A stretch of 64,000 nt of DNA from Undaria pinnatifida (lineage: Eukaryota; Sar; Phaeophyceae; Laminariales; Alariaceae): assembly GCA_012845835.1 (NCBI GenBank), contig JABAKD010000002.1, positions 2,520,501 through 2,584,500 on the forward strand. Reading direction: 5' to 3'. Within the stretch, counting starts at the first letter, position 1; every line of letters begins with the position of its first letter. Shown here piece after piece: positions 4,382-34,500 of the stretch. Both the position numbers and the translations under genes were made by a program. The notes under the pieces are model-generated. The model saw only the letters and a list, made by a program, of their open reading frames with translations, was not told where the DNA came from and made no database searches.

Positions 4382-5910
4382 CGCCGTTTTGCCCGAAAAA
4401 GCGGCACCAATTATCTGATAAATAGCGCCCGAAACTGTTCTTCGAGGAAGCTGTGGTGTGTACCGAAAAATGATCAATCCCCTATCCTGAAGAAACGGCA
4501 AGCGTCGTTGGATGCGCCTCGCAAAATGGCCAGTCGGAATTGGACAAACGCGGATTCGATTCCCCCGGGTCAAACACGCCTGCGCCGCTGCTCAAAACCT
4601 CCATTTTCAGATTTCAAGAATCCGTTGCTTGTAAAACGATTGGCTTAAAGCTGTGAAGATGAAAAGACATTTTCAAGAGCGGTGGAGATAGATGCCCCTG
4701 CGTTACCACGAGTCTAGCATGCGCCGAGTTGTTTAGCGTATTCCCGTACACACGTTCTGACCCGCGATCGAACCGCGATCGAAAGAGGGTGGAAACCCCA
4801 TATATCCCTGATGCGAAAGACATAACGTAAGTGCATGTGGAATAAAAATGATTCGATATATGTCAGCTGTGAGTTCTCGACCATTTTGGGGTTGCTCGTT
4901 TTAATAAATGTATTATCATTTGAAAATATGTACGAAGTATACAAATATGTACCTGGTAATTCCTATGGACGTTGCCTTCAGGGTGAACATCAAGAACGAA
5001 ACGTTATCAATGTATCGCCGATCGACTTCGGTCCAAAAGCATGACACCGTAAGGAAAACACCGTTTGTTTATCTCGCCTGGTTGTAGAGGTCGAGGACGC
5101 TTCGATCGTTCAGGTTGTTCAAGGCGTGCGCTTTCCGCCCGGTCAGCATCTGCGAAAAAAGACGTTCCAAAACAATGCGAACGGTATGGGAGGACGGGGG
5201 GGGGATTGAACATGTTTGAACCACGCGGCGTCATCTAGTCCCATCCCACCTTTTCGGATGTTGTCGTGCTCTTAAAGGTATCCACGGGCATTCGATCTGA
5301 CGCTCCTACTCTGTTGGAGACAGTCAGGGGCGTGGACGATCGGTGCCCCATAGATAAGTCCTGGCCGACGGAAAAAAGGGTTACCTACCCACCCGCCCAC
5401 CCCCCCCCTTCAAACCCCAAACCCCATACCACAACCCCAGCCCTACTAAACCACAATCCAACCAACCCCCCCCCCCCCTCCCCCCCCTTCCCCCTCCTCC
5501 CCGACCCTCCCACCCCCCCACCCACCTGGTCTTCTAGAATGATCATAAGCCCGAGGGGCTTCTTGGAGATGAGGTCTATGACGTCCTGGTTGTCACGAAA
5601 CAGGATGTTTGCCACGTCTACTCCTTCCGCCTTGTACTCTTCCTGTGACGGGTGTGATGAGGCCGTAGCGGAGGTCGAACGGGGTTGTGGGGGGTGGGTG
5701 AATGGGTTTTTCATTGTGTCCAACGTGACGGGTCACATTGCGAGTGGTTTCCGCACCACACCATCAAGCATCAGGTACACAGTCTGCATCATATCCGATA
5801 GGGGGGAGAAGCAAGGAAAATCAACGTTTTTGCCGCCACAGGTACTGCTATTGCTGGACGAACAGGGGGGGGGGGGTCTTATTTTAGCCGTTGCATTCGA
5901 ACAACAACAG

Positions 5911-5947
<37 letters not shown>

Positions 5948-5987
5948 AACGACAACGACATTGACAACAACAACGACAACGACAACG

Positions 5988-6027
<40 letters not shown>

Positions 6028-6029
6028 CC

Positions 6030-6096
<67 letters not shown>

Positions 6097-6152
6097 CCAC
6101 AACAACAACAACCACAACAACAACAACAACAACAACCACAACAACAACAACC

Positions 6153-6239
<87 letters not shown>

Positions 6240-6302
6240 ACAACCACAACAACAACAACAACCACAACAACAACAACCACAACAACAACAACAACAACAA
6301 CC

Positions 6303-6336
<34 letters not shown>

Positions 6337-6350
6337 CGACAACGACATCG

Positions 6351-6399
<49 letters not shown>

Positions 6400-9300
6400 A
6401 AACTCAAGTCACGTGGCGTGGCTGCTGTGTTTTTCGTTATCCCAGGTCGACCAAAACAAAAACGAGACCAACTACAGCAAAGCTATTTTCCTGCCTGTTC
6501 CAGCACGAAGATGTAGTGGTTGAACTGCCGCTGCAGGACCTCGTTGGCGAAGTTGATGCACAGCTGCTCGAAGCTGTTGGTAGCCATGATCTCGAAGCCA
6601 AAGATGTCCAAGATCCCGATGAAAGATTCCTCCACGAGTCCTACCCCCCCGTCGCCGACCCCCCCCCCCGCTCCACCTCTTCCTCCTCCTCCTCCTCCTC
6701 CTCCTCCTCCTCCTCCTCCTTCTCCTCCTCCTCCTGCCCCTCCCCCCGCCCCCTCCCCACGCCCGTTCAGGGAAGCACTGAGGTTCTTCTCACTCGCGCC
6801 GTCGCCCGTTTTGCCCCCGGGCTCCTCCTTGGCAAAGCCCCTGACGTGTTGGTGGTGGCAGCGATTGATGAACGCGATCATCCAGGAAAACAGCTTGCCG
6901 TAGGTGTGCTTGGAGAGGGCCGACAGGTTGTCGCTGGCCTCGCGGGCGGTGAGCGCTATCTCGTGGATGGTCATGCCGGGCGTCATCATCGCTCGCCAGG
7001 TCACCTTTCATGGCGTGCGAGGATTGTGCGGACAAAAAAACAGGAAGAGAGGAGGAGTTTTAGATAAATACTGCAGCTCGAAAAAAAAAAAAAAAAAAAA
7101 ACCAACAAGAAAACACGGTGATTGCTAATAACCAGAAAGCGTGATCACGGGTCATCCATGACTCGACCGCGCCCTTAGAAAGCCAGAAGCTCGCTTCGCT
7201 TCTTGCGGTTGACGTGCTGTAGCCGTCGATGTGTTTCGTTAAAATTCGGCCGTCAGGCCGGGTCAGATGGGTTTCGAAAACTCGAGGGTCGAGTGCGGTG
7301 AGGTCGTGAAGTGCTCGAAATATCATGGGTCGAGTCGGGTCGGGTCGGGTCGGGTCGGGTCGGGTCGGGTTTGGAGGTTTTCAAATCCCAGGGTACGGGT
7401 CGGGTCGGGTCACCCTGACTCGATCCAACTCGTGAAAGGCTCTGTTTGCTTTTCCCTCGTGAAAATGCAGCAAGCGACAACCTGCATTTTTGCTTCTCGT
7501 GGTCGATGCCACAATCTTCAACTTATCCTGTTGAGTTTTTTCTGTGAAGACCGGAGAGGGTTCACTGAGCGACATGATCTCCACCGCGACGTCAATGAGG
7601 GTCGTCGGCACCCTTTCGCGCTTGTCTCCCGGCTTTTTTTTAGACCGGTTTGTTGATTTTCCTCTCTGTGGTGCTTGTGTGCAGGCACTACAGTACCACT
7701 TACACACAGCCGTGCTTTTCTCTCCAGCCAGCTCAAAAGCCATTTAGGGTTGTTCGCAACGAGCACAGAAAACAAAACAAAAAAAAATCTTGACAAAACT
7801 ATCACGATTCTTGACACTTTTCAATTCTGGGATATCACGCTTTTCAAAAAGAAAAATCAAAAGACATCCATCGTAAAAAAAAACAAAAAATTATTCGAAA
7901 GTCAGGGATTCCTGACAAACTGTCACGATTCGCGTGAAAATTATGTCACGTTTTTGTTCTTTCCACGAAATCCTCCTGACATTTTTTTGTGTTCGATAGC
8001 AACGAACCCTCTACTGTGGGGTACCAAAAAAAAATATTTCCTAGATCATTTAACTCACGATTCCTGCCATTTTTGAATTCTGAAATGTCACACTTTATTT
8101 ATTCGAAAAAAAATATATATATTGTCCCACGCGCTGTTTTTGGTCAGGAGAAAAAAAATTGACATCCCCCCTTTTTTTTTTGCGGAATATTTTTCAAGAG
8201 GCTATTCAAAAGTCAGTGATTCCCGACAAGCTGGGTCACGATTCGTCGTGAGAATGTTCACGAGCTTTTCTTTTTTTGTCACGATGGGAGCCCTGGCATT
8301 TTTTTTTTTGTGTGTGTGTGTTCGTTAGCAACTTACCCGTTTCATCCTGGCGATATGGTAACTTCCCAAACATTTGTCACTTTGTTCGGGTAGACCGCGC
8401 GTTGTTTCACCCTATCTATGCACGAGTGATGATACTCTGGTATCTTATTACGAGTGGTGTACCTTTTTCACGAGCGTTGTACCTTTTTTTGCTGATAGCG
8501 CGTGCTGCACCTTTTTTCACGAGCGATGCACCTTTTTCACGAGATCTGCCTTATTTTCGAGTGTGTTTTTGCCTTCTGTACGAGTGTTTGTATCATACCT
8601 TTTACGAGTGATGTAGTTTTTGTCACAGCAGTGCTGCGCCTTTTTCACGAGCGATGTACCTTTTGTCACGAGTGAACTACCTTCTTTTTGAGTGTTTTTT
8701 TTTGCCTTTTTTTGTACATGCATTCTTTACGAGTGAAGTACCTTTTTAGCACGCGTGCTGCAACTTTGTTCACGAGCGATGCACCTTTTTCGCGTGTGAT
8801 TTACCTTTTTTCGTATGTTTTTTACCTTGGTACCAGTGGTTGCAGCATACCTGTATTTACGAGTGATGTACCTTTTTTCACGCGTGCTGCAACTTTGTTC
8901 ACGAGCGATGCACCTTTTTCGCGTGTGATTTACCTTTTTTCGTGTGTTTTTTACCTTGGTACCAGTGGTTGCAGCATATACCTTTACTTACGAGTGATGT
9001 ACCTTTTCTTCACGAGTGCTACACCGTTGTAGCGAGCGATGCACCTTTTTGTCACGAGTGGTGTACCTTTTGTAACGAACAAAAAAAAAGCAAATAAATG
9101 GAGATTTGTATCACACCTTTTTTACGAGTGATGCACCATTTTTTCACGATCGTTTTACCTTTTTCACGAGAAGGTCCTCGTCGAGTCCAAGAAGCCCGGC
9201 GGTTTCCTTCAGAGTAGCGCCCACCAGGTTACCCGAGCTCCGCATTTCCATCCTAGCCTTGGCCTCTCCCTGGCCGGGATGTTCAGTCTCCTGCGGGTTG

Positions 9301-21300: not shown

Positions 21301-24300
21301 CCTCGTTCCGAAACCATTCTTGCCAAAAAAGGGTACACCTTAATACCTCTACCGTAGCACGCGTCTTTTGGGGTTAAGGAGCCCCCTCAATCAGAACACA
21401 CTCTTGCCAAAAAAGGGTATACCTCAATACCTCTATCGTAGCACGCGTCCAGAGGCGCGCGCCACCACAGAGGTTATGTGCTTCGTGGACATTTTCGTTT
21501 CTGGAATGACGGGGGGGGCACTCCTTAACCAAAAATCGTCGGAAAAGTCATCAATTCTTGTTTGTCCAACATGAATGTTTTGTCCGCTTAAGTTATAGGG
21601 GTCTGTCTGTCCATGGGATTGCGCTTCCAGTTTTTACCCGAAACAAGCTTTGGGGGTGGGTACGTACACAGAGCTCTTTTTCGCAAAAAAGCCGAGAACT
21701 TTGCAGAAGGGGGGGGGGGGATTGGTTTGCACGACGCGTGCTGTGATGGAGAGTAGCGCACGTTCGGGCTGTTTTTTTTTTTTTTCTCCGAAATGATGGG
21801 GCTGATTTTTTTTTCATTTTCAACCCCTTTAGAGCCCTAAAACCCCTCCCTCTCTACTGATTCCAAAAAAAAATTGTCCCCCCCAAAACGGGTTCATACT
21901 AATTCCAAGTAACATTGTCCCAAAAACGGGCTCATACTAATTCCAAGTATCTTTGTCCCCCAAAAGCGGGTTTCCGGCGGCAAAGGCGTTAACCCCAATT
22001 CGTCGGAAACGTCATTCTATACTGATGTACAATATGCTTCTTTTTTCTCAAATGCCTAGGCCATGGTCTTTGCTCGTCGGGTTGAACTTTGTCAGCTTAT
22101 CTCAGAAATATACTAATTTCAAGTAATTGTGTCCCCTCAACAACGTGTTTATACTGATTCCAAGTAATTTTGTCACCCAAAACGGGTTTACACTAATTCC
22201 AAGCAAATATTGTCCACAAAACGGGTATATACTAATTCCAAGTAATTTTGTCCCCCAAGAAACGGGTTTATACTAATTCCAAGTGATGTTGTCCAAAAAA
22301 ACGGGTTTATACTAATCCCAAGTATTTTGTCCGAAAAACGGGTTTATATTAATTCCAAGTAATGTTGTCACCCAAAACGGGTTTATACTAGTTCCAAGTA
22401 ATTTTGTCCCCAAAACGACTTTATACTAATTCCAAGTAGTTTTGTCCCCCAAATCAAAGCGTGTTCCAGCGCTAAGGCGTTAACCCCCAATCGTCGGAAA
22501 CGTCATTCTTTACTGTTGTTTGTACAAGATGCTTTTTTTTTCTCATGTACCTAGGCCATGGTCTTTGCTCATCGGGATGAACTTTTTCAGTTTATCTCAA
22601 AAATGTACTAATTCCAAGTAATTTTCTCCCCCCAAAAACGGGTTTATACTCATTCCAAGCAATATTGTCCTAAAAAAGGGTTTATACTAATTCCAAGTAT
22701 TTTGTCCGAAAAACGGGCTTATATTAATTACAAGTAATTTTGTTCCGAAAAACGGGTTTCCAGCGGTAACGGCGTTAACCCAAAAAAAGTCGTCAGAAAC
22801 GTCATTCATTCTTGCTTTACAATACTCGTATACCTGGTAATCTTTTTTTGATCGGATATACCTGGGACATACATGGGGGGTTGCATTTTTTTCTTTCATT
22901 ATTTTTTTTTTATCCTCCGGCGGATGGGGAAAAATAACGCTTTACGAGCTCACCACACTCCCACGTATTTTCATACGCGTCGTGTATCGATTTAACTCAG
23001 TTGCTTTTTCGCAGCCCAACGCTAGCTGGCGCACCCTTCGGGTCCCATTGTAGGTATAGCGTAAGCTGTCCCTATCAGTGGTCCTCGTTACAACCCCGGC
23101 AGCGCAAGCTGTTGCGCTTTTTCAGGTTCATATCAAAAGCCGTTTTTTTTGGGGGGTCCGACAACGAGGTCTCAAGAGATAAAAAAAAAGAAAAAGACAA
23201 AAAACAAAGCGCGTCTAGATGTACGGTACGACCTGTGGTGCGCCGCCCCCACCAGGCAAAATATCGAATAACCGCCCCCTCCCTGCTAAAAAATCGATTC
23301 TCCGTTGCCCCTCCCAACCCGATACACCAGCGACTTTCTTTCCACGAGCGTCTCATGGTTGCTCGCGACGCGAGGAAGGACGCCATGAAAAAAAAATTAC
23401 ATCCTCACATATTTTCTTGTTTGTTTGGCAAGGACTACCAGGTAAATGATAGAACAATCACGTAGGGCGGCGGGAAGGGTCGCCGTATTCAGGAGATACG
23501 GTGTCGGGAGATGGCTTCCTAACCAGCGATTTCGTTACAAGACAATTTCCAAGGGGGGGGGGGGGGGGGGGCGTAGAACGGCAGTAAAGTAGCCCCCCCC
23601 CCCTTTCCCCCCTCCTCCCCCCCCCCCCCCCCGTCAACAGCTGCACACACCGAATCGACTGGAGTTGTCGTTCCGTAGAGTCTTGGCGTTGCCGAACGCT
23701 TCCAAGACCGTGTTGCTCCTCAGCAAGGCGTCTTCGATTCTCTTGGCCATGCCTGTGTCCTTGGTCGCTGGGGGGGAGGGGACACAAAAAAAAAAGAAAA
23801 AAAAACAAGACGAAACAAGAAACTTTTTCAAGAGTTGCAGCCGCTCGCGGCGTCGGGAACGAACGCAACTCGTATCAGCTCGTCATGCTATTCACAGCGC
23901 CCTCTCTCTCTCTCTCCCGCACGCCTTATCCCATCTCTCTCACACACACACTTTTACTTTCCAGCTTCTGGACAAGCCGTGGTCACAGGTGTCGTCCCTT
24001 CTCCCCATATACCAGTCCGACAACAAATGTAAGCTCATGTGAATAATACTTGAAAAACGTTCGGACGGGACGATAAAGTATCATGCCCGGGTCAACCAAT
24101 GCATGTTCTTTAACTCCCTTGATCTGATCGATCTGCACCTGGGGACATGGCAATAAACGAGTCTTGGTTTAAGATAGCAGCACCGCATGGCCTCAATTTT
24201 TTGTCGAGCTGATAATGATTTTATTCAGACTGGTGCGGTTTAAGCGGCAGGCGGCTTGCGATGTACCTATTTTGGTTGGGTAGAAACTGGGGGGCAGGAA

Positions 24301-27300
24301 AACGTATGATAGCATTGAAACCGATTCAAGTGGCACGAGTGTTTGCGTACATACCAACTTTGGGTTTGGGTAGGAACTGCCCAAGCAGGAGAAAAACATA
24401 TAGGAATTAGTGTTGAAACCGTTGAACGTCGCGAATCCAAGGCCAACCCAATCCCACGAAAAATCCACGAACGAAAGATATTTTGTGAAGAAATACGTTG
24501 TCCCACAAAAAATTATTTCAAATAACCAACCTACTGAAGTATTATCATTTGTTCTTGGGCTTGTTGGCCTAGGGGTTGCTATATTATGACTTAGGCTTCG
24601 TCGATTGCACCACTATTTTCTCCCATGTTTTCCAGCCCAACGGAGTTTGGAAACCACAAACGCCGTAGCAGAGGGTATAGATGCGCATGCCTTGAGAAAG
24701 AAGGGTGGATCGTGGGCAGCAGGCGTTTTTGGATCGACGCTGAGACGAAGGTAGAAATGAGTTAACTTTTTGTGCATATACGTAGGTTTTATCTTTTCCA
24801 GGTAGGGGGAAATTTTTTTAGTGATACGTAGGCTTTTGCGGTCGAAGAAGACTGCGCCGAGCATCCACGTAGGAGAAGATGCCGGGTATCCATGTGCGTA
24901 GGCGGCTGTGGTCTTCGTGGCAGCTCTTGCATAACTCGTAGGTTTTATCTTTTCCAGGTAGGGGGAAATTTTTTTAGTGATACGTAGGCTTTTGCGGTCG
25001 AAGAAGACTGCGCCGAGCATCCACGTAGGAGAAGATGCCGGGTATCCATGTGCGTAGGCGGCTGTGGTCTTCGTGGCAGCTCTTGCATAACTCCGCCTCT
25101 TTCAGAATCTTGGAGCTCTTCAGTCATGAGGCGAGGAAGGACGTGGTGACGTACCGCATATATATGACGTGCTTCGACGCTTCCGTTTTTTTTTTTCCCC
25201 CCTATACAGGGTAAAATATGTATGACGCGATAACTGAATCAAACGTGCCGGGGGGCAAAATGCGAATCTGTATATATATATATTACTGGTATCCACAAAA
25301 CAAAATGGAAAAGAGTACGCTTAGACCTTTTGATTTAGTATCCCCCCCGCCCACCCGCGTCTCCCCCAGAGTCTTGGAACTCTCCTGCGAGGAAACAGCA
25401 CCTATTTGCACTATCGGCACCTGTGAGAAAAAAATGACTGAACACCCTGTGTCTCATTGGTCGAGGCCTGCCTTTCGACAGGCCGAATATTGTTAGAAAA
25501 ACGCCTGCAAAACACGTGGCGGAGCCGCGGGACCGCCCTCGCCGGCCTCGAGCCCCCCAAAGGGTTAGGATTGGGGCTAGGGTTAGAGTTGGGGTTAGGG
25601 TTAGGGTTGGGGTTGGGGTTGGGGTTAGGGTTAGGGTTAGGGTTAGGGTTAGGGTTAGGGTTGGGGTTAGGGATAGGGTTAAAGTTAGGGTTGGGGTTAG
25701 GGTTGGAGATAGGGTTGGAGTTAGAGTTAAGGTTAGGGTTGGGGTTGGGGTTGGGGTTAGGGTTGCGGTTAGGGTTGGGGTTGGGTCTGGGCCGACGTGC
25801 AACATAGAAATAAACATAATAAGGTGTGCGCAGTCATTTTTTGTTTGGCACCGATGCTGCAAATAGGAGTTGCCCTGCGAGCAGCCTCAACGTTTTTAGG
25901 TGCAACCCTGTTATATTTTCATACGCCGGTGGGGACAGCTCGTGCTGTCGCCACCACCGGAGCCGAAGGAAGCGCCAGCTAGCGCTGGATTGCGACCGCA
26001 ATCAAGTTAAATTGACGCACGTCATGTATGAAAAGTACGCGGAAGTGTGTGGTGAGGGTATCAAGCTTTTATTTTCCCCATTCGCCGAGGGATAAAAACA
26101 AAGCAAACAGAGACATACGAATTTTGACATAATTGTGGTCGAAAATATTAACTAAACGTCGTTCGCGTGGGTGGGCGTATTGGCTTAAAACAGTAGCCCC
26201 CGCTCACGCCCCGCCTCCTCTGCCATATTTGAACTCCCCTGCCATGAGCTTGGAGGCCGCCATGAGGCATCACATTACGTGCTTCGACGACGCCTTCGTC
26301 TTTCACACCCCAGCGGTGCGCCTCTACACCGAAGTATGACGCGATAGTGTTAAGGAATTCGTGGGGTATTAGTCCGTTTGACCACTCTTTGCAGAAGGTT
26401 AACCGCTAGCTTACCCAAACAAAGCCTTATAATACTCTCCCCCCCTGAAACGGTGGGATCGCAGGTCGCGGCCGGATATACGGGCCAACGTGTCCATATC
26501 CAAGCGCGGTTTTATCTCCTGGGGATAGCGGGGAGAGTATTTTTCAGAAGTTCGACATGGGGAAAGTCTGAAAATAATTTTTATTGTGGGATGGTGGGGT
26601 TTTGGACCCACGACCCCCCAAAAACAACATTTTGAACCCACGACCCCACAAAAAGAAAACATGGTCCTGCCGACGACGCCATTTGTTAAGTTATTATTAG
26701 TGGGGCATTTTTTTCCGTTCGACCACTTGCAAAAGGTCAGTAACCAATAATGGCTTACCCAAGCTAAGCCTCTTAACAAAAGCTAGCCCTAACCCTAACC
26801 CAGCCTAAAAATATGTAGGATGGGGGGGGTGGGCACCAGATTTTCCAAGAATTTTCTGAGGTCCTAGCTCCCAAAAGAGAGCTCGATAGTGTCTCACCAT
26901 CACCCGAAAGCCACGAAAACTTCGAAGGCGTTCGTCCGCCACAGCCCCGACCACCAACATTTTTCCGCGCGCGAGCCCCAAGGTTAACCGTGTACTCGTA
27001 AAGTTATCGCGCTAACCGGTAGCTTCACACTCGTAGAGGAGCTAAAAAAGAATGAACCTCTGCCTTGGGATGACTCGTTGTATATCTGGCATTTTTACGG
27101 CGTTCGTATCAATATGTAGGCGGTTTGCTTCAGTTAACCCCGCTTACTCCCGCCTCACTCCAGAGTCTTGGAACTCCTCTCTGGAGAGCCTCAGGAAACG
27201 GAGGCGCACCTCCCACCGCATTACAACATCGCCGGGTACAACAAAAAAACCGCCGTTCGTGTGTTCGTGTGTGAGCGTTTCGGTCCAAGTTTGAAAAGGC

Positions 27301-28435
27301 TCCGTTCGTGTACATGTAGATGTTTCCATATAGTTTGTTTTTTTTTAAGCGCCCGTTTGTATGCATGCGCATGTGTATGAAGTAGGCGTTTGCATTCAAT
27401 ATTAAAAAAAGCGCCGTTCGTATGCATGCGCGCCCCATGTATAACGCGTTTTTTTTTCCGTCTGCTACTGTACTAACTCGGCTCACCCCCATTTCCTCCC
27501 GCTTCTTTGAAGTCCCCCACCATGAGCTTGGAGGCTGTGCTGATGTACTGCATGACGTGCTCGCCGTTCGTGTGTAAGCGTTTCGGTCTAAGTCTGAAAA
27601 GCTCCGTTCGTGCATATGAAGTAGGCGCTTCCATGTAGTTGAAAAAAAAAACACCGTTTGTGTGCATTCGCACCATGTACAACGCATTTTTTTTCGGTCT
27701 GCTACGGTAGTAACTCGGCTCACCCCCATTTCCTCCCGCCTCTTTGAACTCCCCCGCCATGAGCTTGGAGGCCGTGATGAGGTACTGCATGACGTGCTTC
27801 GACGCCTCGGTCTTTCCCGCCCCGGACTCTCCCGAGATGATGATGGACTGGTTCGTGCCCCGCCTCTTGCCACGAGTGATCTCCTTGTCCAGGCCCGTCA
27901 TGTACCTTTGAAGGTTCCAGATGGGGTTCATGTAGATGATCGGAAAATGAGATCGGCCGATTGATTGAAACATAGAGTGCGAGGGCAAGAGCGAGCTAGT
28001 AAAATAGCTTTCGCCTGAAAATGTTGGCGGGGGTGGGTGTGGGAGCGCGCGCAGCTGCGGGGGCGGGGGGGGGGGGGAAGGAGTCCCCGCCTCCAGGTAA
28101 TCCCCTGTCCGGGATATGTCATGATTTTTTTTGCGACCAAGGCTACGGTAGGGGGGGGTTTCACTTCGGAGGCATTTTTTTGCAGTGGCGCGGGGTCGCT
28201 CGCACGAGTGACCACCCTGTTCCTTTGCGGTCGTATGCTTTTTTTTTTTTTGAGGTTCGCGACATGAATCCGCACTGAAATGGTAAGCTAGGTGCTTCGG
28301 TTTCCCCCCTCCCGCGCTACAGTAGTAGTTCTTGTTTTTCCCCTCTCACCGGTAGGCTCGATCTGCGGCCGAAAGACGTGCGGCTTGTAAGATAGACACA
28401 TTTTCCTTTTGGAAAGGCTTTAACGCTACCATTGG

Positions 28436-28560: not shown

Positions 28561-31500
28561 TTACGCCTACTACCACGACTACTACTACTGCTACTACTAC
28601 AACTGCTACTGCTACTGCATCGCCATCCTTTGTAGGTGCCTCGGCACAAAACTAAACATATCCTACTGTGGCGCGTTGACCGGGTATTCATCCACAGACC
28701 GGGTCCGATGTGGTGTAGACCTACAAGCGCTGCTGGGCTTTTTCTTCATTTTTGTTTTGGATCGCTCTTTTTCGTCGCTACACGACCAAGGCTACGGAAG
28801 GGGGGGGGGGGGGTCACCTTGTTGGAGGCTTTCTTTTTTTTCGGTGGTTCGGGGTCACTCGCGCGAGTGACCCCCCCGTTCCTTTCTGGTCTTGGGCTTT
28901 TCGCGCTGCTCTAAGTTTGCGATATCGTTCCGCAATGGAATGGTATTACGCTGCGCCACAAAAAAATCTGGCCTAAAGTCTTCTTGTCCGTGCGTGAGGT
29001 ATACATAGAGTCACTCGTGGTAGCGGTGAAAACCCCTAGTGGGATGTGGGGGTATACTATAAACACCATGATAACCACACCCATCATCGCAACACCGTTG
29101 TCACATCCCCCCTACTGGTGCCGCACCGTAGCCTTCGTCCCAAGCGTATTCTACTCCCTCTCACCGGAAGGCTCGGTCGGCGACCGAGAAGACGTGCGGC
29201 TTGGAAAGCTTCTTCACCAGGGCCACCGGCCGCGAGTACTTGCCGTTTCCGGCCCCGTCCCGATCGTCCGCCTCCTGCGCAGCCCAAAAACGAACCGAGA
29301 CAAGCCGAAAAATATATAGAAGTTTCCAAAGGAAAAAACAAATCATGAAATGCTTTGAACACGAGTTGGTTCCCGCTCTCTCTCTCTTTCGATCTCCTGC
29401 CCAGATAGGTGAAAAGAAAAGAAAGCACGGAAAAATATTGAGCAGAAACATAACAGTCTTGTTTCTCCCTCTCGCCCTCTTCCTGCACAGAAAAAAGTAC
29501 GGTACCGTATATAGCTACCATTATCACTATTGGCATTTTTTTTCATGCTACAATAGACTGCCTAACATCACCCTGTTGACCCTGATAGCTACATTGTAGT
29601 TGCAAGGGGAGTCGCCGGCCTATATCCTTAATGAGGACACACAACCCGTAATACGCGCGCTCGGAGTATCACACACAGCTTGCAAAGATGAGTTTCGACA
29701 AAATAGTCGATCTCACAGCTGGAGTGTATATTTATTTTTATAATAGAGGTGCACCAACCATTTTTTTTTTTAATACTATCCCTCAGCATGGGAGCTTAAC
29801 CCCTTTACAACTGGAAACCCTTTTTGGGGACAAAATTACTTGGATTTAGTATTGGGAGGGGTTCGGGGGCTCTGAAGGGGTTGAGACCTCTCCCAAAAAC
29901 CGGTTTGATCCCGGATGAAACTACTACCGGATGAAAAATCCCACATGGCCCAGGTACACAACGAGAATCACGCAAAAAAAAAATGCCCATTATTTATTTT
30001 TTTCCCGACGATTTTGGGGTTAAGGAGCCCCCTCATTCAGAACACACTCTAGCCAAAAAAAGGTATACCTTAATACCTCCATCGTAGCAAATGGCCTTTT
30101 TTTTTCTTTTTTTTCCCGACGATGTTGGGTTAAGGAGCCCCGTCATTCACAACACATTCTCGCCAAAAAAAGGTATACCTTAACACCTATCGTAGCAAAT
30201 TGCCCATTAATTTTTTTCCCCCCGACGATTTTGGGGTTAAGGAGCCCCGTCATTCAGAACAAATTCTCGCCAAAAAACGGTACACCTTGATACCTCTATC
30301 GTAGCACGCGTCATCGGTCGGGAACGGCAACCTACAGAAAACGAAAAGCACGCCCAAAAAAGCACACACGCACACACACTCCCTCTCGACCAACGTATTG
30401 ACAATCCACCTCCCTCTCTCCATCGCTCTCCTCGAACTCGTCCCCCGGTTCGTCCTGCATCTGCTGCAGGGGCACCTCGTACAGGAGCGGGATGTTCTTG
30501 TACGGGTTGATGCTGATAAGGACGTCGGCGACGTTCGTGTAGATCACATCCTGTTTTTTTTTTTAGTTTTTTTTTTTTCGTAGAAGGAGAAACGTGCCGA
30601 AAACACGCAAGCACAAAAAAAACGGAGCCGGTGAGGGTTTGCGCTCAAGAGGAATAAGGATGTATTTTCTTCGCAAAAACGCGTCGAGAACAAAAACGGC
30701 TCCGCTGAGGCCTCGTGCCTCGAAGGACAGGCTTGTTTCTTCCAATTTGAATGCTCCCAATAGCACGAAGCGGTTCCGATTGAGTTGTGCGTTAATCTTT
30801 AGGGTCCCATGTACAGCGACCAAAAATCGGTGATTGCTGCATTTGCAAGCGTTTACGAGTACATAGCGTGAGCGCGCGCGCAGCAGCACGAGTAGGACCA
30901 TGCCGCGCCCGTCCTGCACGAGTGTTTTGCATTATATGTGTGCTGTGCTTCGAACAGCAATTGAATCATCCCTTAAACAGCAGTGCCTGCCCGATGCTGT
31001 ACTCACCAATGTTCGTAGTCAGTTTCCACACGAGTTACCCCACGGTGGGGTGGGGAGGGGGTACTCAGTTTGTGCATGACCGTAGTCGTATGACCATAGA
31101 TCCTCGCATCCCTGCTATGCCGGGACGGAGCACGCCGGGTTTTCACCGATCAGGCAGGCGTTGCTTGCACCAAGCGCGAAGCGTCGTGAGGTGTTCGGCG
31201 AGTCGTATGAAGGGTGAACTGCAATCCTTCCAAGATCGGCTCGTAAGACGGACTTCGGCACCTTATGCCTAGTTGCTTGCTTATGGGTAACAGCGCCAAC
31301 GAGTTACTTTGTTTCTGGTGTGGCCACTCCAGAGGCAGCAATCGGTATTACTATGTAACTGCCTCGTGGGTATCTTACCATATTAACTGTTTTTTTTTTT
31401 TTTTCATCCTCCGGCGGATGGGGAAAAATAAAGCTTTAGCTCACCACACTTCCACGTATTTTCATACGCGTCGTGTGTCGATTTAACTCAGTTGCTTTCG

Positions 31501-34500
31501 CAGCCCAACGCTAGCTGATTATTAACACTACGTGATGCGATCATTCCCCCTGTGTGGAGCTAGTGATCTCCACCCTGCACAATATGGGCCCCAAAGAGGG
31601 GTCGTTTTTGGCCAAAAATTGCCCCCAAAACAAAACACCAACAAAAAGTTCGTTCCAGTAGGAAGCGCGCTGACGGAGACATGTGATGTCGGGGACAAAC
31701 ACATCAACATGTGTAGCAGTGTGGAGGTGAAAAAAACACTGTTTTCCCTCTTTCTAATTGGGCCGCTACGTGACCGACTGTCCTTGGTGGGCCTGCGCGT
31801 GAGTGCGTGCGCGCGTGCGTGCGTCCGAGAGCCAAGAAGCTCGCGGTCCTTTCAGCGAGGTTACCCCCACCCTCCCCCACCCCCCCTCGTCTGCCTGGTT
31901 GGTGAAAACCCGACGTGCTCCGTCCCGGCAGAGTAGGGATGCGAGGGTTTATGGTCATAAGACTACGGCCATGCACAAACTGAGTACCCCCCCCCCCCCC
32001 CCCTTTGGCGTGCCAGGGCTTTCACCAGGTTGGGAGGCAGTATTGCCTATCGTATCGCTGCAATAGTCATGTTGACGCCAAAATCAGTCCAAGGCGAAGA
32101 AAAATCGCTATTAAGTGCTGCCAAAATACGTTGCTCCTACGCTGACGGTGGGACCTAAGGTAGTGCCTCGCCTGTAACCTTAACTCGCCGCCACCGCCAC
32201 TACGACTACACCACTGCAACCATCACCACCCCCACCACCACGCCAACAAAAACACCACCACCAACGCCAACACCAACACCAGCGCCAACACCAACACCAC
32301 CATCACCAGCGCCACCACCACCGTCACGACCACCATCACTGCCCCTGCATCACTACACCCACATCAGCGTGGACCACCACACCACCACTACCCCCACGCA
32401 ACCCCCATCATGACCACCTCTCCCGCGTCGACACTACTCCTGCTCCCATCGCTACGACTACCACCACCACCGCCACCACCACCACCGCATCAACCCTACC
32501 CCCACGAAAGACGTTACACTACCCCAACCACCACTCCCACCCCCATATCGACCATCGGCACCGCCGCCACCACCACCACCACCACCACCACCACCACCAT
32601 CACCACCATCACCACCACCAGCACTAAGACCAACATCAACACCAACACCAGAAACAAAACCAACGCCAACATCAACACCAACACCAGAAACAAAAACAAC
32701 GCACCAACACCAACATCGAAGCCAACACCATCACCATCACCAACACCAACACCAACACCAACACCGAAACCAGCACCAACATCAACATCCCCTTCTCTTC
32801 ACCAGAACCACCCCCATGTAACCATTGCCGACGCCACCATTTCCACCACTAACACCATTAACACCACCAACACACCAACCCTGCCAACATCACCACCGCC
32901 AACAGGTGCTTGTACACCACCACCAACAAACCAACATCACCAAGACAACCATAAACACCAACACCTACACCACCATCCCCGCCAACACCACCACCACGTC
33001 ACCAAGACCACCACTAAGCCAATAACACCACCAAAACCAATACAACAGCACAACAACAACACGAAACACACAAAAAAGAACGCCAAAAAACAACGATGAA
33101 CTGAACCACCAGAAAAAAAATCAACTCAGAGTCATCCTTAAATCCGCTCCTACGGCATATGGGCATGCATGCACAACCGTTGCCCCATGATGCAATCAAT
33201 CCTCACCTTGCGAAACCGCCTCAGCAGCAGGTCTAAAAGAGGCGCCTCGTGCATCTGGTTCATCTTGGAGGCGTCATCCAGGTCCAGAGCATGGCTCGGA
33301 TCGTACGGGTGAGTGTCCGCCTTCGGAGCCTGTTGTCGAATCACGCAAAGTGTTTTCACGCATCGCACGTATCAGACCTCGTGGGCAACTCGTATCGGCG
33401 TGATCATCTGTAGGATGTACATGCTATATATACGTGTCCCAACTTATTGATCTGTACGATCTGGGTACAGTATGCAGGATATATGTTTGTACCAAGTCAT
33501 TACTTGATTTCTACGATCTAGGTCAGAGAGATAATGATATTTTTCTGAGGCGTGTGAAGCGCTTGGAAGGTGCCATCATTGGTGCGGGATACAAGTTCAG
33601 GCAAGCGCATGGGTTGGGTCGTACGGCTGGGTTTCCGCCTTCGGCTCCCGCTCTTGACCACGCGAAGTATTTCACAACGCGGCAAGACACAATAAATCAC
33701 TGTACCTGCGAGTCATCCCACGCCAGCACAATTCGGCGCGGGTCGACAAGGGAAGAAAAAATGCTGAGTTCTTCTCGCGATGGAAACGAAGAAAGCACGT
33801 ACCGTTGCGAGGAGAGGGGGAGGAGGGCCCACTATGCGACCCCGGATCTGAGGTATTACCGGGAGGAAGGGCGAGAGACTCATCCCACGGCAGGGGTATC
33901 CCACGGTAGGGGTTGCAGTTGTTGGATTAACTAATAATTTACCTGTCCGATCGAGCTCTTCGAGTGAGGAACTAGCCGTTAGTCATTGATCAAGCAATTT
34001 CACCAGTACATGTTTTTTCAAGGACTACTAAAGGCAAAGAAGCTCGGTCGAGGGTTGTACGAACGAATGCCTTCGAAATCATGTGTAGTATCGGGTGATG
34101 AGATATTTATTGGGCAAGCTCCTCATGTGAGGAGAGCTCAGAAGCTTCTTGGAATCTTCTGCTGTGCACACCCCATACCGTGGGATGGATCGAGAGTAGA
34201 GCGAGGATAATAAATGGGACAAAAAGGGGGAAAACAACAACAAAGAAGGGGAGTTGCACTTTTTTTTTTGTATTTTTTTTTTCTTCCCGTTGAAGCTCCT
34301 CAAGAGGGTGAAACCATACTATCGGCAAGTATGATACTTTTACGAGTGTATATACAGGGATGCTGGTCGGGTTGCGCCAACGAACGCCTTCGAAGTCATG
34401 TACCCGGTGAGACGTTGATGTTGAGCTCCTCCTGTTAGGAGCGGCCGAAACTTCTTGGAATCTTCTGGTTGTGACCCCTGGTGTGGGATGTCTGCGATGG

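Follow-up and report, generated by a model that had tools for sequence, protein, structure and literature searches.

Partial copies of exon 3' ends in a myosin loop-1 intron of Undaria pinnatifida as probable debris of local tandem duplication across 5' splice sites

We analyzed a 64,000-nucleotide stretch of the genome of the brown alga Undaria pinnatifida (GenBank assembly GCA_012845835.1, contig JABAKD010000002.1, here C26, positions 2,520,501 to 2,584,500; hereinafter, the window), which carries a gene for a myosin motor on the minus strand. Intron 6 of this gene, which interrupts the coding sequence of loop 1, contains a field of partial copies of the 3' end of the preceding exon; the original prediction for this locus, made from the letters alone, was that these copies might form an alternative-splicing system that varies loop 1. 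The results presented here point to a different origin: the field is probably (we put the probability at roughly 0.8) what is left of local tandem duplications that repeatedly spanned the 5' splice site and have since decayed. The pattern extends beyond this exon: about one quarter of the donor sites examined in the myosin genes of this genome have a downstream copy, and acceptor sites almost never have the mirror arrangement.

The identity of exons 6 and 7 is supported by their translations and by matches to myosins in PDB. Exon 6 (27,905-27,724, minus strand) encodes the P-loop, a helix and the start of loop 1, and the copies derive from its 3' part; exon 7 (23,767-23,651, minus strand) runs from the last part of loop 1 as far as switch I and follows the acceptor cccccccag|CGACC. 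The 3' end of exon 6 reads AAT GGG G|gtgagc, and the junction of the two exons is in phase 1; re-reading of the sequence bore out both the boundaries and the phase that had been predicted. The intron is 3,956 bases long, and the donor of exon 6 itself falls in the 3rd percentile of donors in this myosin family. A search of the genome (68 contigs, 511,146,479 bases) with the PF00063 profile gave at least 75 exon-level matches, which we grouped into about 20 genes. One of these, paralogue P, lies past the right end of the window on the plus strand, inverted and head-to-head with the window gene, with exons located from about 2.600 to 2.616 Mb of C26 (region C26:2600001-2616000); its loop-1 intron is identical in position and phase (phase 1) to that of the window gene. 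Exon 6 of this paralogue terminates in a Gly/Pro-rich loop 1.

The copies were tested by BLASTN, with exon 6 and its flank as the query and the window as the target. Three of them are supported by this search and two are weak (those first placed at 27,140 and 25,355), so that the predicted presence of partial copies of the exon 6 3' end in intron 6 holds. The youngest copy (27,376-27,561, minus strand; 84% identity over 187 positions, E = 5.6e-47) includes the exon tail, the donor and the intron head, and is a direct tandem repeat with a 237-base-pair (bp) unit; 73/80 positions of its exon part and 69/80 of its intron part are identical to the source, with a single 1-bp indel in the exon part. 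The copy that had been reported at 27,487 is accordingly real, but it is part of this direct duplication of exon tail and intron head and not an isolated exon copy. An older copy (26,202-26,311, minus strand, originally 26,197; 78% over 110, E = 4.9e-19) comprises the exon tail and a donor, GGC|gtgagc, and the most diverged of the three (25,108-25,190, minus strand, originally 25,085; 72% over 83, E = 2e-7) carries indels of +6, +1 and +1. All three are on the same strand as exon 6 and downstream of it, the older ones farther off than the tandem copy, which agrees with the repeated partial exon duplication initially proposed. Wherever the alignment extends that far, the copies consist of exon tail, donor and intron head; they span 75-100 of the 182 exon bases, the 5' end of the exon and its acceptor are missing, and indels that are not multiples of three are present in two of the three. 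The weak copy at 27,130-27,210 (minus strand) shares a 19-base match with exon 6 (E = 0.01). The segment 25,355-25,384 gave no direct BLASTN match to exon 6 and is thus tied to it only through the copy at 27,185, to which it is 72% identical over 61 bases (E = 2e-7); the weak copies near 27,140 and 25,355 resemble each other more than they resemble exon 6.

Within the window, the best match to exon 6 outside intron 6 has an E value of 0.56. When the whole genome was searched at the DNA level with exon 6 and its flank (336 bases), the matches listed fell in eight places, namely, exon 6 itself, two of the intron 6 copies, the P-loop exon of paralogue P and four P-loop-like stretches (one on C22, two on C57 and one on C55); the third copy is missing among the matches listed. 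A similar search with the copy at 27,100-27,260 found it at its own site only, among the matches listed. This distribution fits a local origin of the copies without proving it. We rejected the possibility that the copies were pasted from a paralogue or a dispersed element, given that the genome matches listed are this locus, paralogue P and the four P-loop-like stretches. Paralogue P has copies of its own: two segments of its intron 6 match the tail of its exon 6, though in diverged form (70% identity over 158 positions and 64% over 159).

A duplication that spans a donor would keep the full exon and the first donor intact, with the extra copy falling inside the intron. Because such a copy has no 3' splice site of its own, it would be discarded with the intron and would be nearly neutral; with the intact exon and the first donor transcribed ahead of the copy, donor duplications would be tolerated. 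The mirror event at an acceptor would set a working acceptor upstream, disrupt splicing and be removed. In-phase cassettes would then be a by-product, since a copied tail retains both the frame and a donor, and an AG close by in the correct phase would be all that it still lacks.

The same arrangement recurs at other exons. In the window gene, copies are associated with exons 5, 6 and 11 (3 of the 13 exons tested): intron 5 contains a copy of the 3' end and donor of exon 5 (28,341-28,390, minus strand; 88% over 51, E = 1.8e-10) with a 1-bp deletion, and intron 11 contains a tandem array (8402-9078, minus strand) with a unit that includes the end of exon 11 together with its donor (17 matches besides self; TRF arrays). 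For a broader survey, we fetched 11 further myosin loci; 84 exon cores were obtained from 10 of these plus the window gene, and none from myoQ. Of the 84 cores, 27 were listed by hand (15 from the window gene and 12 from paralogue P), and two were dropped as repeats (myoH 11532 and myoF 13860). Exon boundaries in the paralogues were predicted with a simple scoring matrix and the open frame, and myosin motif patterns were also used; hand correction of the donor was applied to one core in the count of confident sites and to three cores in the count made with no score threshold. Matches with a dinucleotide entropy below 3.3 were excluded from the donor and acceptor counts. Among the confident donors, 15/60 have a same-strand downstream copy that crosses the exon-intron border, with no upstream and no inverted copies; among the confident acceptors, an upstream copy was found for 1/44 and an inverted one for 1/44. 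With no score threshold, across the 11 myosin genes, 19/81 donors with a same-strand downstream copy compare with 2/81 acceptors with an upstream one (Fisher p = 8e-5), and when the entropy floor was lowered to 2.5, the counts became 20/81 donors with a downstream copy plus one inverted on each side, and 2/81 acceptors with an upstream copy plus one inverted. Local duplicates cover the donor itself most often (17/60); 100 bases inside the exon the coverage is 0/60, 140-160 bases past the donor in the intron it is 7/60, and beyond that it stays at about 10-17%. Tandem duplicates are frequent in general: over the gene regions as a whole, 10.5% of the bases have a same-strand local duplicate downstream and 10.8% one upstream. 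Genes B, G, H and I are related, and therefore the events are not all independent.

The P-loop exons of two other, related myosin genes, myoH and myoI, have copies of their own 3' ends after them (by BLAST, one in H and two in I; by eye, more), and exons of this type may be more prone to such copying than others. A single ancestral copy for genes B, H and I was considered and rejected: H and I share theirs, and the copy in gene B looks independent because its intron is not alignable to those of H and I by BLASTN. The copy shared by H and I allows a direct comparison of the two paralogues. In an alignment with a 7-base gap within the shared copy, the exon-like part is identical at 25/43 positions and the intron-like part at 27/34, compared with 148/150 in the exon, 95/100 in the first 100 intron bases, 84/113 in the next stretch and 36/50 after the copy; the exon-like part is thus less conserved than the surrounding intron and is the least conserved of these stretches. 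In gene I, the donor of the shared copy is gone at the aligned position, with a GTGAGG two bases off.

The decay of the copies was assessed in a pool of 14 of 19 alignments, the other five, in which intron was aligned to itself, being left uncounted. Within the exon part, 19/23 indels are not multiples of three. Mismatches amount to 31/126 in the donor region (-3 to +5), 88/352 in the exon flank and 121/336 in the intron flank, the last being higher, as would be expected if both intron sides drift but only one exon side does. Special conservation of the copied donors is accordingly rejected, their mismatch rate being like that of the exon flank. When stop-free, in-phase cassettes with decent sites (thresholds 2 and 3) were sought, they were found for 2/22 copies, compared with 5.4% of 2,100 random placements, and at thresholds 4 and 4 for 2/22 copies compared with 3.1% in the control; the copies as systematic cassettes are rejected on the basis of this near-control rate. 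The segment at 25,355 is outside these 22 because it has no BLAST match to exon 6. Pooled over genes, the copies appear to decay neutrally, without clear coding or donor constraint, a statement about the pool that is not provable for any single copy, and the copy at 27,376-27,561 is itself a direct, same-strand, downstream copy of exon plus intron. Four tests of whether the copies are used in splicing, namely, the pooled differences in the exon part, the donor mismatches, the comparison of H and I and the cassette rate, point to no.

Several observations weigh against the duplication-debris reading. Mismatches between copy and exon in the pooled alignments are 39/254, 36/254 and 55/255 at the first, second and third codon positions; such an excess at the third position would be expected from a constrained exon and an unconstrained copy, and weak constraint on the copies could give it as well. 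When a lax acceptor is allowed, 8/22 copies are cassette-capable compared with 15% of the placements, an excess that we read as the effect of the inherited donor. Two segments of intron 6 were originally singled out as cassette exons, 27,534-27,487 (48 nucleotides (nt), within the tandem copy) and 25,384-25,355 (30 nt), one or both of which would be spliced in, lengthening loop 1 and tuning ADP release. Their coordinates and phase (1 to 1) are correct, and both are stop-free on reading. The 30-nt cassette (25,355-25,384, minus strand) has a strong acceptor, in the 89th percentile of the family acceptors and the 99th of intronic AGs, which outscores the acceptor of exon 7. Two cassettes as good as this one were observed in intron 6 and none in 100 dinucleotide shuffles; when the thresholds are relaxed to those of the 48-nt cassette, intron 6 has 13 in-phase open cassettes, compared with a shuffle mean of 4.3, and no shuffle reached 13 (the antisense strand of the intron has five). 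This excess counts for the original prediction, but the sites were chosen post hoc and copied tails import their own donor. Variation of loop 1 through exon choice is also a known phenomenon, having been reported for scallop, ctenophore and smooth-muscle myosins. On the other side, each cassette has one poor site, the acceptor of the 48-nt cassette being in the 4th percentile of the family, similar to the median intronic AG, and the donor of the 30-nt cassette in the 5th percentile; the good acceptor of the latter adjoins an element with terminal inverted repeats (TIRs), the cassette being 11 bases from it. The window cassettes have no match within intron 6 of paralogue P, although some of the window copies match exon 6 of P, and the pooled decay and the near-control rate of decent-site cassettes at copies in other introns tell against the same scheme. 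Given that such copies are also found after numerous exons outside the loop 1 region, that they decay, and that they yield decent cassettes at close to the control rate, the reading of the field as a splicing system for varying loop 1 is not supported, and we consider splicing of these cassettes very unlikely, although low-level use may occur.

The tandem copy raises a second alternative, that exon 6 runs to the second donor at 27,487 and retains 237 nt (79 codons), which would give a long loop 1. Both donors are GGG|GTGAGC in near-identical surroundings, and the 237 nt that separate them are in frame and stop-free, another point that weighs on the side of use; when the first 162 intron bases are shuffled, only 4.5% of the shuffles lack an in-frame stop. 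Such an open gap is not very rare, because 14% of the 237-nt windows in intron 6 are likewise stop-free, and the retained peptide has FFF and KK runs that derive from homopolymers, like intron sequence. A general second-donor system is not apparent either, because among the 12 copy sites at which the gap between donors was tested (three in frame, four open), only the exon 6 tandem copy is both. Use of the second donor as an alternative 5' splice site thus seems highly improbable, although, judged from the DNA, either this 237-nt extension or a 30-nt microexon may still occur. The copied donors could, instead, be decoys or recursive-splicing points that aid long introns. The length of intron 6 and the retention of a GTRAG-like site in many copies are compatible with such a role, which seems extremely improbable when the copied donor is conserved no better than the exon flank and when gene I has lost the aligned site in the copy that it shares with gene H, albeit with GTGAGG two bases away.

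The remaining points against the preferred reading, that is, debris of tandem duplication across the donor, concern its neutrality and generality. At 1,000 random intron points, same-strand copies were found downstream for 11.4% and upstream for 14.6%, and inverted ones for 3.5% and 4.0%, respectively, so that donors exceed random intron in downstream copies (15/60 compared with 114/1000, p = 0.004); plain neutrality does not predict this excess, except insofar as copies that span an exon are more readily detected when only one side decays, which may be the case. A looser scan of the 84 cores that kept low-complexity matches gave 48 rows, of which nine are upstream (seven cores, several of low complexity) and four are inverted. 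In four kinesin genes, a copy was found for 1/13 donors and 1/11 acceptors, and a downstream copy for 14/300 random intron points; with such counts, the pattern was not confirmed in these genes and its generality is unproven. Finally, donor-spanning copies concentrate at a spacing of 225-265 bp (8/17 compared with 12/146 other local duplications), an unexplained feature for which the interval was picked after the offsets had been seen; with two dependent cases removed, the count is 6/15 (p = 0.002). Copies with this spacing include those at one and the same exon of gene B and of genes H and I, which seem to have arisen independently in B and in H/I. Tentatively, these features might reflect a duplication process centred on 5' splice sites that places copies of tail and donor downstream (with tails mostly shorter than 90 bases) at a spacing of about 225-265 bp and from which the acceptor mirror is nearly absent.

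The closest known system is the cluster of mutually exclusive loop-1 exons, in which the length of loop 1 influences ADP release and which, like intron 6, places sequence-similar extra exon copies beside an exon at the same site of the motor. Those exons are whole, matched in frame and length, predicted from sequence and for many genes supported by cDNA, whereas the intron 6 copies are tails, mostly frameshifted and known from DNA alone; whole-exon copies with both an acceptor and a donor and a conserved reading frame, as found in mutually exclusive exons, are not seen among the copies of exon 6. Splice variants at loop 1 of myosin II in smooth muscle and scallop (PMC8191873) involve the same site and the same predicted effect of an insert; here, the cassettes are predicted from DNA, paralogue P has no insert and one cassette acceptor is poor. 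In a potato RNA-dependent RNA polymerase gene (PMC4974935), a local tandem duplication likewise occurred across a splice site; it spans the acceptor, created a new intron and rewrote the gene structure, whereas the copies described here span the donor and the gene structure is apparently unchanged. Intron gain in Drosophila through partial exon duplication with a proto-splice site (PMC2891723) shares the use of a partial tandem exon duplication as a source of splice-site sequence, but here the intron pre-exists and the copies are inside it. Brown algal ROCO genes (PMC11378527), with their exon-shuffled and alternatively spliced tandem exons for leucine-rich repeats (LRRs), share local exon duplication and probably the lineage; those exons are whole 72-bp, phase-2 units with diversifying selection and annotated isoforms, in contrast to the decaying fragments seen here. 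In the available part of the literature on partial exon duplication at splice sites, we recognised no description of this pattern, which is not proof of its absence in print; the surprising part is the polarity between donors and acceptors together with the 225-265 bp spacing.

Intron 6 contains other repeats besides the exon copies. An element that resembles a miniature inverted-repeat transposable element (25,396-25,872, 477 bp) has 22-nt TIRs, 82% complementary, around telomere-like (TTAGGG)n sequence; its edge is 11 bases upstream of the acceptor at 25,385, a stretch related to part of it (83% over 196 positions) is present on C38 at 11.50 Mb, and no clear target-site duplication was found by eye. 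The (TTAGGG) repeats within it are degenerate, and intron 6 of paralogue P has GGGTTGGGG-type repeats in the opposite orientation. A 156-bp tandem duplication with 100% identical copies (24,781-25,093) in the same intron is a recent local duplication. Similarity to a stretch near paralogue P marks a dispersed repeat at 22878-23045 (89%), 31392-31517 (94%) and, inverted and within intron 6, 25955-26106 (78%). Elsewhere in the gene, a 504-bp AAC/GTT-type trinucleotide array (5900-6403) is located in an intron, and exons 12 and 13 lie in a single 174-amino-acid open frame (6486-7007); the long glycine-rich stretch that separates them, immediately before switch II, is either a mini-intron that has been retained or an insertion rich in Gly. 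A search of the window against Rfam gave no match, and searches for relatives of the motor fragment gave 66 pattern matches in a genome contig collection and 24 in a viral contig collection, none of them confirmed.

This locus indicates that homology and phase readily mimic alternative splicing, a duplicated exon tail bringing both the frame and a donor free of charge. The polarity observed here, with donor-spanning duplications kept and acceptor-spanning ones nearly absent, is a testable readout of the splice-site duplications that a genome tolerates, and bears on the lengthening of introns and the origin of new exons. If general, it would amount to a polarised route of intron growth with a steady supply of proto-exons, and would be shaped either by a mutational bias, with breaks linked to transcription where exons meet introns, or by a filter at splicing that always favours the donor transcribed first.

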